DNA from: a virus
Virus record (IMG/VR): IMGVR_UViG_3300027816_000458
Coordinates: 1-21,538 of that record
Length of the DNA stretch: 21,538 bases
Reading direction: 5' to 3' (one strand)
The notes beneath the pieces are model-generated. The model searched no databases. It was not told the DNA's origin and saw only the letters and a program-made list of their open reading frames with translations. Position numbers and translations under genes: made by a program. Of the stretch, positions 118 to 10,860 are shown one piece after another (within the stretch, counting starts at the first letter, position 1; the number at the start of each line of letters is the position of its first letter).

Positions 118-145
118 AAAGAGAGGGTTAGAACACCCTCTCTTT
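118..145 (-). terminator. Intrinsic terminator of the VWA gene
   Basis: A perfect 11-bp stem (AAAGAGAGGGT / ACCCTCTCTTT) with a 6-nt loop is followed on the minus strand by a T-rich tract. The stop codon of the VWA gene lies in the loop, so the hairpin overlaps the last codons. Confidence 0.75.
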
Positions 146-1669
146 TAGTTTAATTACTCGACCATCTGGACCAACGTTCTCGATAGTCACACCGTTGAAG
201 ATGATACATTGTTGTCTTTGAGCGTACTGTGCCATGACACTACTATCGAAGTGACGGAAGTTGGCTCCCTGAACACCGATAAAGAATGCTTTATCACTGT
301 ATATAGAACAACAGTCTTCAGCATCTGTGATTACTAGAGCGTTCTTACCTGTTGTTACAATGTTCCTTACAGCGACGTTGATGTCCGTACCACCATCAGT
401 GTCGATCATAGAAATACTGATCAGGTCGTTTCTGTACTTCTTAAGTCGACTATTGAAGAGATACACGTCGTTTAACATGTCCATCTCTTTCAGCTTGGCC
501 ATCATAGCTTTACCGAAGTCTAAACAGCTGATAGGTTTATTTTCAGCGTTATTTATACCACAGCCACTGCCCATAGAACCAGAAATGTCCAAGTACACGT
601 CGATTTTACCGGCGTACCTGATAGTCTTAATCATGACATCTTCAGCAAAGATCTTGCGAAGTTTTGGGTGAAGCAGATGATACTCATCCAAACCAGAGAT
701 ATCTGTAGCGTTGAAGAGATCTTCAAACTCTACGATTTCATTGGCTGAAAAAGTACTGGCGGCTTTATCCAACAACTTTTTGATCTTCTGTTTCAGAGAA
801 CCCATAGACAATCTGATCTTGTCCAGGTTCTTAGCAACTTGTCTCAGATAGTCTGGACTCAACTTACCGGCATCTTTATTACCGGTGTATGAGTTAGCCT
901 GGTCGAACATCTGTTCTTGTAATTCCTGATCAATACTTTCATCAAGCATCTTACAGGTCTGTTGAGCATCCTGCATCATACGATCCAGAGAACTCTGACC
1001 GGTAGGAGAGTTCATCTTGTTCATCAGATTGTTCATGTCGTCGTTACCCATGCCGCTGCTGTCACCCAGACCATTCTGCATGTCGTTACCGGCATCTGGA
1101 TCGACATAGTCCATCTGAACCATTTGAGTCAGATAGTAGACCATCATGTTACGAGTGAATACAGAACTCTTCAGGTTGGAGTGTTCGCTCATAATCTTAC
1201 CAATAGGGTTATTGGCTTTCTCCAGGAACTTGTAACGCATGCCGTTTTTCTCAGTACGGTCTTCAAACTCCAGCTTTTCTGTACGGTTGTAGTACAACTT
1301 GAAGATGTCCCTCAGCATATGCTTCGGTATCTTCCGGTACTTTTCTTTGATTTTTTCGTAGTAGGCGTTGTAGTCTGGTTTCTGGTCACCAAGTCTACTA
1401 AAACTGGTTTGCTTAGCCCAGTGGTCGTATTCTTGTTTGATCAGTTTCTGATCTTCAACAGCTGCGTCAACCACACCTTCCAGCTTTCTCTCATCTAACC
1501 AGTGCATGTGTGGTTTGATAAGGTCGTCTTTTTTGTAAAAGTCTAACTTAGAGAATAGACCACCAGTACCATAACGGCTACCATAGTAGCTGTCACCGCT
1601 GATCTCACCTTTCTTTACTTTCTCTAAGATTGTGTATACGTTTCTGTATTGTTTGTTTCCTTTACTCAT
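128..1669 (-). CDS. VWA-domain protein (CobT/ViaA-like partner of a MoxR ATPase)
   Basis: A 513-residue protein with a C-terminal von Willebrand factor A domain at about residues 350-490. The metal-ion-dependent adhesion site is visible: DISGSM at 361-366, GGTD at 426-429 and ITDAED at 447-452. Residues 190-300 are Asp/Asn/Gln-rich with Met-rich stretches, resembling the acidic linker of CobT-type proteins. The gene directly upstream encodes a MoxR-type AAA+ ATPase; in known systems (CobS/CobT, RavA/ViaA, NorQ/NorD) such pairs form a remodelling machine in which the VWA subunit recruits the target. The target here cannot be told from sequence. The ATG follows an A/C-rich leader without Shine-Dalgarno. 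VWA identity is secure; the pairing is inference from adjacency. Confidence 0.88.
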   Translation of the reverse strand: MSKGNKQYRNVYTILEKVKKGEISGDSYYGSRYGTGGLFSKLDFYKKDDLIKPHMHWLDERKLEGVVDAAVEDQKLIKQEYDHWAKQTSFSRLGDQKPDYNAYYEKIKEKYRKIPKHMLRDIFKLYYNRTEKLEFEDRTEKNGMRYKFLEKANNPIGKIMSEHSNLKSSVFTRNMMVYYLTQMVQMDYVDPDAGNDMQNGLGDSSGMGNDDMNNLMNKMNSPTGQSSLDRMMQDAQQTCKMLDESIDQELQEQMFDQANSYTGNKDAGKLSPDYLRQVAKNLDKIRLSMGSLKQKIKKLLDKAASTFSANEIVEFEDLFNATDISGLDEYHLLHPKLRKIFAEDVMIKTIRYAGKIDVYLDISGSMGSGCGINNAENKPISCLDFGKAMMAKLKEMDMLNDVYLFNSRLKKYRNDLISISMIDTDGGTDINVAVRNIVTTGKNALVITDAEDCCSIYSDKAFFIGVQGANFRHFDSSVMAQYAQRQQCIIFNGVTIENVGPDGRVIKLKERVF

Positions 1670-1680
1670 GAGTTTGGGGT

Positions 1681-1809
1681 TTAAAGAGTTGTTGCAGAAG
1701 CTATCCGCAACAACTCTCCATTATGTAATTTGTACAGATCTCCAGTTTTTGGATTATGATAATAGTTACTATTACCTTGTAACTGTACTAACCCCTTACT
1801 TAGAAAGGG
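1681..1809 (-). other. Candidate -1 frameshift extension of the MoxR-type ATPase
   Basis: The last codons of the ATPase read AAC CCT TTC TAA, so CCCTTTC (minus strand, 1809 to 1803) is a canonical X XXY YYZ slippery heptamer touching the stop. Slipping back one base pairs Pro and Phe tRNAs on CCC and TTT and reads 40 further codons, ending in TAA at 1681-1683. The tail contains NSNYYHNPKTGDLYKLHNGE, which looks like real protein and resembles YMRGNDGSIYEV in the ATPase N-terminal extension. The frame has no ATG, GTG or TTG before this segment and is closed upstream by a TGA, so it could only be read by frameshifting. An indel or sequencing error would look the same. Confidence 0.5.
1685..1717 (-). 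terminator. Strong hairpin between ATPase and VWA genes
   Basis: A perfect 11-bp stem (AGAGTTGTTGC / GCAACAACTCT) with an 11-nt loop lies 16 nt before the VWA start. It is followed by TTTAAACCCC rather than a long U-run, so it may be a weak terminator, an attenuator or an mRNA end. It also overlaps the end of the -1 frame tail. Confidence 0.5.
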
Positions 1810-3428
1810 TTGGTAGCATCAGGAGTTGCTACTGCTTCTTCCAGGATATTGTCAAACTCTTCTGCAGACTGGTAGTCTTTACGTGCAGGGTGGCTAGACA
1901 GGATATACTGCATAGAGAGCTCTACTTCCTGTACCTGATCGCTATCCAGGATACCACGAGATGTGTAACTGTTGATCAGCGCTTCGATCTCAGCGATCGC
2001 CAACTCCAACTGTTCGTTGGTAGTCTGACTGTGCAACATGTCTACCTTACTCATAATAGCTTTCAGCTCTGGACTCATCAGCTTATTCTGAAGTTCAGAA
2101 CTAGCTGTCTGACCAATCATGATCTGAGCTGTCTTCACCAGGGCCTTATCTACAGAGATATCCCAGATGTAGCTTACAGCTTGAGCCAGCTTTGGTACGA
2201 AAGTCAGTGTACGGTCAGAAGAATTGGTGTAACCTACTTCCAGGTACTTCTCCAGCTTCTTAACTGGGATACTTACGCTCTCAATTTCTTGAGGTGTAGG
2301 AACAGGTACATTGATTACTTCTTTGTAGCTACGAGCACCCTGCTTGTAGTACTTCACCATCTCACCGGCAGATACACGGTTTACTGTCATCTTCAACATG
2401 AAACGATCCCAGAACGGAGAGTCAGCCTCTTCTTTAGGAATTTCGTTACAGGTAGCAATGAACAGCTTCCACTTACAAGGGATCTTGTGTTTACCGTTGA
2501 ACAAGAAACGTTCGTTCATAACACCCAACATGGCGTTACGGATAGCTGAGCTAGCTTTATCCACCTCGTTGATGATAACGATCTCAGCGTCAGCAATAGG
2601 AGCAGCGAGCTCGTATACGTTGTTGGTAAACAGCTTACCCAGATCCGGCATACCTTTGATCTCTGAAGCTTTGGTACCTTCGTCAGTCTCCAACATGTAG
2701 ATCTTATTCATGAAGTCTTGAGGAGCCATTGTACCGTCTTTGTTCAACCACGCTTTAGCGTAGTCAATAACGGTCTTAGTCTTTGCCACACCGGGTTCAC
2801 CGACTAACAGACATGGTAAGCCTGTTGCTTCCGCCAACGCCAACATGCGGAACACTTCGTCTTTATTGATCAAAGACGTGTTGATTGTACGTACTTCTTG
2901 AGCAGTTTTCTTAGCCGGTAAAGATTGTTTCTTAGACATTGTTTTTTGTTTGATGTTTGAAATTTGTTGATTGAGTTTCTCTACGTCAAATTGATCGTAG
3001 GTTGGTGTTGTGGTAGTAGGATAAACAGGAGGTTTAGTTAAGTCAAATGAGTCTGCACCCATAAAACCATCATATAATCCTTTACGATTACCTTGGTTAC
3101 TGTTAAAAGGAGCTGGTTCATGAACTAAAAAGCCAGGATTACGTGAGTAATGAGTTGGATGAAAAGCTTTTAGCTTTACTTTTTCTCCAATATGATTATC
3201 TCCTATACCAGAACCCTGTTTAACAATTGTTACGTCACTATCTAAATACGGTACATGGCGCTGTACAGTTGGTTTACTAAGATCAGCTGCTTTCCATCTT
3301 TTTACACCACTATTAGTTTCCATCACTTCGTAGATAGATCCATCGTTACCCCTCATGTATGTACCAACTGGATACAGAGTAGCGCTATCTGATGGACTCG
3401 GTCTACTTGATCTGTTACTTGAGGACAT
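1800..3428 (-). CDS. MoxR-type AAA+ ATPase (CobS-like) with N-terminal extension
   Basis: From the ATG at 3428 the product is 542 residues. The AAA+ core has Walker A GEPGVAKT at 210-217, Walker B EIVIINEVDKA at 282-292, sensor 1 LFIATCNEIP and a DSPFWDRF segment typical of MoxR/CobS ATPases. Residues 1-163 are a Ser/Pro/Thr-rich extension holding a small motif, YMRGNDGSIYEV. An internal ATG at 2939 (MSKKQSLPAKK) follows the leader CAAACATCAAACAAAAAACA, which fits the local start-site style better than the leader at 3428, so a 379-residue AAA core may also be made. The frame is open back to 3596, but that part overlaps the preceding gene; the ATG at 3428 is 10 nt past that gene's stop and was preferred. 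It precedes the VWA partner. The 3' end carries a slippery heptamer. Confidence 0.85.
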   Translation of the reverse strand: MSSSNRSSRPSPSDSATLYPVGTYMRGNDGSIYEVMETNSGVKRWKAADLSKPTVQRHVPYLDSDVTIVKQGSGIGDNHIGEKVKLKAFHPTHYSRNPGFLVHEPAPFNSNQGNRKGLYDGFMGADSFDLTKPPVYPTTTTPTYDQFDVEKLNQQISNIKQKTMSKKQSLPAKKTAQEVRTINTSLINKDEVFRMLALAEATGLPCLLVGEPGVAKTKTVIDYAKAWLNKDGTMAPQDFMNKIYMLETDEGTKASEIKGMPDLGKLFTNNVYELAAPIADAEIVIINEVDKASSAIRNAMLGVMNERFLFNGKHKIPCKWKLFIATCNEIPKEEADSPFWDRFMLKMTVNRVSAGEMVKYYKQGARSYKEVINVPVPTPQEIESVSIPVKKLEKYLEVGYTNSSDRTLTFVPKLAQAVSYIWDISVDKALVKTAQIMIGQTASSELQNKLMSPELKAIMSKVDMLHSQTTNEQLELAIAEIEALINSYTSRGILDSDQVQEVELSMQYILSSHPARKDYQSAEEFDNILEEAVATPDATNPF

Positions 3429-9957: not shown

Positions 9958-10860
9958 ATGAACATCACTCCAACGAATGCTTACGGTAGATGGATGACTC
10001 TCTTCGGAAACCAGGTTCCATACAACGTTGTCACCGTTTCAAGAATGATCAAACGCTGGGATGTCAAGACTCTATACGAGATTCCAGAAAGACTACTTAC
10101 CGATTCGAAGCTCGGGCCGGTCACCTATAACAACAGACTGGCAATCCTACGTCGATTCAGCAAATGGTGTCTTAAGAAGAAGCTGATTAAGTATGACATC
10201 ATGGAAGATCTTTCTACCAGGAAAATACCAGGTAGAAGTAAGACGCGTGAACCTTACTCTGACGAACAGATCCATAAGATTCTAAACGCGTTGTATGATA
10301 AACCCTATACACGGAAGTATTACTACCCGTATATCAAGTTCATGCTGCTCACCGGCGTACGTAATGGTGAAGCAGCCGGTCTTAAAATCGGTAACGTCGA
10401 CTTTTACGATGGGTATATCCTGATAGATAAGTCCTATTCAAGAAAAGTCAACGGTAAGTACCATCTTAAGTCAACCAAGACTGTAAGTGGTGTCCGGTAT
10501 ATACCGATTACCCCGGAACTCAAGGATCTCTTGGAACCTCTTTGTACGAAGAAAGACTCAAATACGTATGTGTTCCGGTCCCGGTTTGGGAATCCTATAC
10601 ACAACGTAAACTTTCAAAAGAGGGTGTTTAAACCCTTACTTAAGAAGCTAGGTATACCAGAGAGGGATCTCTATGCTTGTCGACACACGTTTGGAACGAT
10701 AGCCGTAGAACAAAACATGGACATCCTCTCTGTTGCATACCTGATGGGTCACAGTAAACCCAGAACAGTTCTGGATCACTATGCTAAAATCAGACACAGA
10801 CCTAAGACTCTTCCCCAAGTTGTGCAAACTTTTGGAAAAGACCGCCGAAACGACCTTTAA
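9958..10860 (+). CDS. int: Tyrosine recombinase / phage integrase
   Basis: A 300-residue site-specific recombinase. Residues 1-95 form the helical core-binding domain; there is no separate arm-binding domain. The catalytic domain shows R135 (LLTGVRNGEAAGL), K174 (STKT), Y239-A-C-R242 followed by HTFGT, H265 (LMGHS) and the nucleophile Y275 (DHYAK). The usual HxxR box is YxxR here, a substitution that I believe active enzymes can tolerate. It is one of few plus-strand genes, lies next to a half tRNA and an inverted repeat, and its last 59 bp overlap the end of the convergent gene at 10802. It suggests temperate ability or an integrated ancestor; excisionase is not obvious unless the HTH gene serves. 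Confidence 0.95.
   Translation: MNITPTNAYGRWMTLFGNQVPYNVVTVSRMIKRWDVKTLYEIPERLLTDSKLGPVTYNNRLAILRRFSKWCLKKKLIKYDIMEDLSTRKIPGRSKTREPYSDEQIHKILNALYDKPYTRKYYYPYIKFMLLTGVRNGEAAGLKIGNVDFYDGYILIDKSYSRKVNGKYHLKSTKTVSGVRYIPITPELKDLLEPLCTKKDSNTYVFRSRFGNPIHNVNFQKRVFKPLLKKLGIPERDLYACRHTFGTIAVEQNMDILSVAYLMGHSKPRTVLDHYAKIRHRPKTLPQVVQTFGKDRRNDL

Follow-up and report, generated by a model that had tools for sequence, protein, structure and literature searches.

The window analyzed here, a 21,538-nucleotide stretch of virus DNA, comprises positions 1 to 21,538 of the IMG/VR record IMGVR_UViG_3300027816_000458. Its minus strand carries a gene for a MoxR-type AAA+ ATPase beside a gene for a VWA-type partner protein (Table 1). 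Pfam confirmed the MoxR AAA+ domain (bpMoxR, PF20030, E value of 8.7e-24, and also AAA_5), and the RavA structures match the core distantly in sequence. The ATPase has an in-frame N-terminal extension, which begins at the first ATG after the upstream stop, at position 3428. The extension module RPSPxxSATxYxxGxxxxGNDGNxWxVxxxxxGVxRWV is conserved in 38 of 75 homologues, and in others a second module, YKFxVGDxVKVxxxGxGxxPEDxG...SFELV, replaces or accompanies it. The start ATG of the core (MSK or MAK) is conserved besides the extension, so a long and a short MoxR start may both be used. The VWA gene starts 11 nt behind the stop codon of the tail described below. A D.SGSM motif is present in 67 of the 69 open reading frames (ORFs) downstream of MoxR; the window protein itself has no Pfam VWA match. 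The homologues of the small gene upstream of MoxR end nearly always in SAFANL-stop or IFANL-stop, and MoxR lies in the +1 frame relative to this gene in nearly all loci examined. At several loci, the next ATG is within about 10 nt of its end.

Table 1. Coordinates of the features at the MoxR-VWA locus of the window
Feature	Position	Strand	Basis
VWA-type partner gene, 513 aa, DISGSMGSG MIDAS-like motif	128..1669	-	Motif comparison
Predicted outer stem, 3' arm AACCCC, about 7 nt ahead of VWA start codon	1676..1681	-	Fold
Class c tail in the -1 frame, 40 codons and a TAA stop, predicted to be a beta meander	1681..1803	-	Coding test, AF2
Predicted inner hairpin, 17 bp (1720-1704/1698-1682)	1682..1720	-	Fold
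Predicted inner stem GUACAG/CUGUAC (1788-1783/1737-1732), closing small hairpin (1776-1769/1765-1758)	1732..1788	-	Fold
Predicted outer stem, 5' arm GGGGUU, beginning 7 nt behind heptamer	1790..1795	-	MFE and centroid fold
0-frame stop TAA, directly behind heptamer	1800..1802	-	Sequence
MoxR-type AAA+ ATPase, conserved core, 379 aa from MSKKQ to DATNPF-stop	1800..2939	-	Pfam, homologues, structure matches
Slippery heptamer C CCT TTC (X_XXY_YYZ), last base touching stop	1803..1809	-	Sequence and homologues
N-terminal extension, in frame, with module RPSPSDSATLYPVGTYMRGNDGSIYEVMETNSGVKRWK	2940..3428	-	Frame open in most homologues
Small gene upstream of MoxR, 123 aa	3439..3810	-	Neighbor, outside the frameshift unit

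The MoxR gene ends in GCT ACC followed by AAC CCT TTC TAA (1811-1800, minus strand). The initial annotation had noticed here a canonical X_XXY_YYZ heptamer touching the stop codon and, behind it, a 40-residue extension in the -1 frame ending in TAA, and both are present. The -1 reading starts CTA AGT AAG GGG and gives LSKGLVQLQGNSNYYHNPKTGDLYKLHNGELLRIASATTL, with 40 codons at 1803-1684 and the TAA at 1683-1681. As also noted there, this frame lacks a start and is closed upstream: in the window and the near-identical locus L002, only five codons are open upstream, and no ATG, GTG, or TTG occurs before codon 30. An AlphaFold2 model of the tail is a three-stranded beta unit (strands 14-16, 23-27, and 30-35) with a pLDDT of 86.5.

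We scanned IMG/VR and obtained about 100 contigs with a related MoxR of 55 to 100% identity, each adjoining the same VWA gene; 67 are close homologues of the window MoxR. Dereplication left 75 distinct 3' ends as the comparison set. In 32 of them, the -1 frame behind the MoxR stop holds a protein-like tail of 27 to 53 residues, each lacking a usable start upstream, and about 40, roughly half of the homologues, are tail-less. The tails fall into four classes: class a (RDFLKPMNPG...SLEDLVKQAN), class b (GTPVxKPGSLQELYDLL), class c (QGYRHITENYYWKSGEIYFLNDxGEMHPLLGAS), of which the window is the most diverged member, and class d (GLW...PGSFTLEDL). A class c HMM built without the window found the window tail at rank 2 among 833 segments with an E value of 0.63, which is unconvincing alone, and thus the case rests on the family. 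Pfam, PHROG, and PDB searches gave no usable match to the tails; four class a tails matched TTC3_9th (E value of 0.002), which we put down to a chance resemblance between helices. Searching all loci with an HMM and scanning the collection twice revealed tails only behind MoxR and behind no other gene.

The carriers of the site and the tail are a family of uncultured phages. No close relative of the clade was found among 50,697 phage records, no cellular relative came from 84,980 species genomes, and no Terminase Pfam family matched in the 113- to 131-kb relatives. The uracil-DNA glycosylase is nearest to crAss-like, Flavobacterium, and other phage enzymes, with 34 to 41% identity. The window also contains a tyrosine-integrase-like ORF on the plus strand (9958-10860; phrog_1, E value of 2e-46), unlike its plus-strand neighbor genes, which suggests a temperate phage or a mobile element.

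The heptamer goes with the tail. An X_XXY_YYZ site is found at the MoxR stop in 24 of the 32 tailed genes versus 2 of the 39 tail-less ones (Fisher P = 4e-10), and counting by cluster gives 19/27 versus 2/32 (P = 2e-7). The initial annotation had named a conserved heptamer and a conserved -1 tail in most homologues as support; the joint occurrence holds, but the tail is not in the majority and its sequence is poorly conserved. Eight tailed genes lack the full heptamer. Six of these retain U_UU.Y at the stop, and the remaining two have a UUU-type slippery run one or two codons upstream. The 0-frame stop is TAA or TAG in every tail-bearing homologue. Codon choice at the site is restricted as well. 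Among genes ending in Pro-Phe-stop, the Pro codon is CCT in all 25 tailed genes versus 5 of 19 tail-less genes, while CCA and CCT are both common Pro codons in the MoxR gene body. The residue before this Pro varies (Asn, Leu, Ile, or Ser), and its codon has C as third base wherever the heptamer is complete. In frame, CCCTTTN occurs twice in 27,418 codons of the MoxR body, which sets the chance level. Only 6 of 562 other ORFs of these loci end in X_XXY_YYZ, and none in CCCTTT. The association of site and tail could be inflated by linked inheritance as one DNA block.

We built a MoxR tree without the last residues of the protein, on which tail presence changes about 20 times. Over 20 independent pairs of a tailed and a tail-less gene, the heptamer accompanied the tail in 14.3 and opposed it in 0.5 (means; median P = 2e-4); well-supported branches alone gave 5 pairs, too few for significance, so the test leans partly on weakly supported branches. 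Natural variants were also found. In L003 and L004, the slippery site is gone (CCT TAC TAA) and, compared with L005, a net change of one base disrupts the tail frame, with the stem described below kept; slippery site and tail frame were thus lost in step. L006 and L008 have an intact class b tail in the +1 frame behind ACT TTT TAA and retain the outer stem (AGGTCAT/ATGACCT). The Phe-tRNA at TTT TAA could slip forward there, and a switch from -1 to +1 shifting is possible; phages are known to use either shift direction for one purpose (PMC5009743). Two homologues, L055 and L064, keep CCCTTTC-TAA without a recognizable tail. In L055, the -1 frame gives only 10 residues, LNQDFLPISL, which look like a decayed class a tail. 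Across the MoxR family, tails appear to have been swapped, lost, and regained while the slip site follows.

Selection on the tail as protein was examined with alignments made from DNA only. We calculated the mean BLOSUM score of differing codons and used column shuffles as the control. The -1 frame stood out in class b (0 of 1,500 permutations), class c (z = 4.5, 0 of 1,500, with the window included or left out), and class d (z = 2.4, P = 0.003). The signal was weaker in class a (z = 1.5, P = 0.06), probably because this tail runs into the VWA start at its 3' end and has a strong hairpin in the middle. The other five frames gave null results. Restricted to pairs that include the window, the test gave P = 0.009 for the -1 frame, while the two remaining forward frames showed no signal. 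All six gaps in the class b DNA-only alignment are multiples of three. A Nei-Gojobori pN/pS analysis had given a weak signal (ratios of 0.67 to 0.81, with saturation), and the permutation test was used instead.

A constrained -1 frame could in principle be a separate small ORF, translated from its own start or by ribosomes that reinitiate after terminating at the MoxR stop. The tail ORF does sit between two codirectional genes, and most class a tails have an ATG or GTG at codon 9. However, class a conservation (RDFLKP) starts ahead of this ATG, and several tails lack any start codon. In the window and the rest of class c, no ATG, GTG, or TTG stands ahead of the conserved tail residues, except in L083 (TTG, codon 7) and L086 (ATG, codon 12). 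Independent initiation would also leave the synonymous choice of CCT and of NNC codons at the stop unexplained, and we consider it very improbable.

Behind the heptamer, the RNA is predicted to form a long-range stem. In the window, the region folds with -47.4 kcal/mol (z = -8.4). In nearly all tailed loci, the stem begins 3 to 4 nt after the stop, i.e., 6 to 7 nt after the heptamer, and closes 65 to 125 nt downstream around an inner hairpin. Folds of 60 nt behind the stop had shown no structure specific to tailed loci, wrongly, as the far arm lies 65 to 125 nt away; folding was therefore extended as far as the VWA start. We measured the stem as the pairing probability of these positions with partners 50 to 130 nt downstream. 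Its median was 0.88 in tailed versus 0.15 in tail-less loci (P = 5e-12), and it exceeded 0.5 in 31 of 32 tailed loci versus 8 of 41 others. Classes a, b, and d have AGRTYNN/NNGATCT-like arms, and one pair of their stem occurs as UA, AU, CG, and GC. The covariation score was 0.49 versus 0.25 in shuffles (0 of 500), a somewhat generous figure as the arms were hand-picked for pairing.

The initial annotation had judged the stimulator weak and too distant, which is not borne out: the long-range stem is far stronger than the hairpin considered there and begins 7 nt behind the heptamer. It was misjudged because the far arm is located just before the next gene. The small hairpin proposed instead (AGUUAC, 1784-1779, with GUAACU, 1769-1764) can form but is absent from the minimum-energy fold. 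Similarly, the AACCC and GGGGTT segments said to flank the site are real, but in the full fold GGGGUU pairs with AACCCC at 1681-1676. AACCC at the site could pair with a following GGGTT in most class c members. We rejected this pairing as an element, since it is in competition with the downstream arm and is excluded while a ribosome occupies the site.

As a separate observation, nearly all loci, with or without a tail, have a strong hairpin of unrelated sequence in the MoxR-VWA gap, which may be terminator-like or serve VWA translation. The RNA structure could serve to control the VWA gene in one of these ways, with the -1 ORF being incidental; that such hairpins accompany tailed and tail-less loci alike, and that the 3' arm of the class c stem is just ahead of the VWA start, would fit. 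Nevertheless, this account has little chance of being correct, because the substitutions respect only the -1 frame, the class b gaps keep that frame, and the heptamer accompanies the tail and not the hairpin. The RNA may serve both purposes, yet this does not make the -1 frame incidental. A frame broken by a sequencing or assembly error or a recent indel might be suspected from a single metagenomic contig with short homopolymers (CCC and TTT), and the initial annotation had named an in-frame tail among homologues as its mark; the same -1 arrangement in 32 distinct contig ends, with a frame-0 tail in none, refutes it. Transcriptional slippage and stop codon read-through can each yield C-terminally extended proteins and are both exceedingly unlikely here, since the CCC and TTT runs are too short for the former and the latter would stay in frame 0, where the next stop comes within 7 codons (median), while the tail is in the -1 frame.

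Taken together, a programmed -1 ribosomal frameshift very probably puts the C-terminal tail on a fraction of the MoxR subunits. Two ATPase forms made in this way had been suggested initially and are strongly supported by comparative sequence evidence, namely the site, the constraint in the -1 frame only, the stem at the right distance, and the joint loss of site and tail frame. Most ribosomes would terminate at the TAA after NPF. A fraction would slip back one base at C CCU UUC, with the Pro and Phe tRNAs re-pairing with CCC and UUU, assisted by the long-range stem 6 to 7 nt downstream and by the adjoining stop codon. The shifted ribosomes would then read the -1 frame and append the 40-residue tail, giving short MoxR and a presumed minority of long MoxR. 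In E. coli, C_CC.U_UU.Y heptamers rank among the efficient -1 motifs, and shifting also occurs at U_UU.Y tetramers (PMC4066793).

MoxR proteins assemble into hexamers that pair with a VWA protein, and NorQ hexamers bind one NorD (PMC9976466). By analogy with such machines, short and long MoxR probably join one hexameric ring. A minority of tailed subunits would give rings with zero or few tails, and hence a built-in asymmetry. The tail might provide one or a few subunits with an extra contact to the VWA partner, a substrate, or a structural protein. The tail kind differs between near-identical MoxR proteins, which suggests contact with a variable partner. The initial proposal that the long form docks through a repeated small domain of the N-terminal extension found no support: profile-profile comparison of the tail with the N-terminal module RPSPSDSATLYPVGTYMRGNDGSIYEV gave a probability of 0.4%, and the tail was rejected as a repeat of that module. 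More speculatively, the stem might both drive the -1 shift and shield the VWA start, and a shifting ribosome, by opening the stem and stopping beside the VWA start, might help the VWA gene to start; we regard this coupling as a tentative idea that is rather less likely than not to hold.

The dnaX gene encodes an AAA+ clamp-loader subunit and makes its tau and gamma products by a -1 frameshift. There, shifting at the heptamer A AAA AAG yields the shorter protein and is stimulated by a Shine-Dalgarno-like element upstream together with a short hairpin. The MoxR gene is like dnaX in that an AAA+ ring protein would come in two lengths by -1 frameshifting, and unlike it in that the shifted product would be the long form and the heptamer is C CCT TTC. 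In T7 gp10A/10B, frameshifting produces a C-terminal extension of a structural protein. Further extensions of phage structural proteins, such as the Ig-like ones of T3 and Lactobacillus phage A2 and those of Listeria A118 and PSA, likewise have a -1 shift near the 3' end. These small C-terminal modules look dispensable, are carried by a minority of molecules, and are exchanged among phages, and related phages can differ in the direction of the shift (PMC5009743). Here, in contrast, the carrier is the AAA+ ATPase of a MoxR-VWA pair and no known capsid or tail protein. Pfam and PDB gave no Ig-like match for the tails, and the tail of the window is predicted to be a beta meander. In lambda G/GT, a -1 shift fixes the ratio of the short and long forms of one tail assembly factor (PMC5009743). 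Our locus resembles it in the short and long form from one gene by a -1 shift, while the gene, the position, and the stimulator are different. A viral MoxR AAA+ gene adjoins a VWA gene also in ATV (p618/p892) and in group 2.2 jumbo phages, with a proposed role in virion assembly (PMC7824862). In the literature found, no frameshift has been described for these pairs. We found no paper on a MoxR with a frameshift site of its own; the sole literature match for MoxR and frameshift (PMC7911831) concerns tail chaperones.

Our results would add a MoxR-class AAA+ chaperone to the few phage gene types with a well-supported programmed frameshift and show how a phage could make deliberately uneven rings from a single gene. 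If the coupling to the VWA start were true, the frameshift rate would set the ratio of MoxR to tailed MoxR to VWA protein in one step. Since the tail changes about 20 times with the slip site following, the family offers a ready-made set of variants with which to test what drives -1 shifting in Bacteroidota-type hosts. Current annotations of these phages would miss the C terminus of one protein form, and identifying the binding partner of the tail would give direct access to the function of the MoxR-VWA pair in phages.
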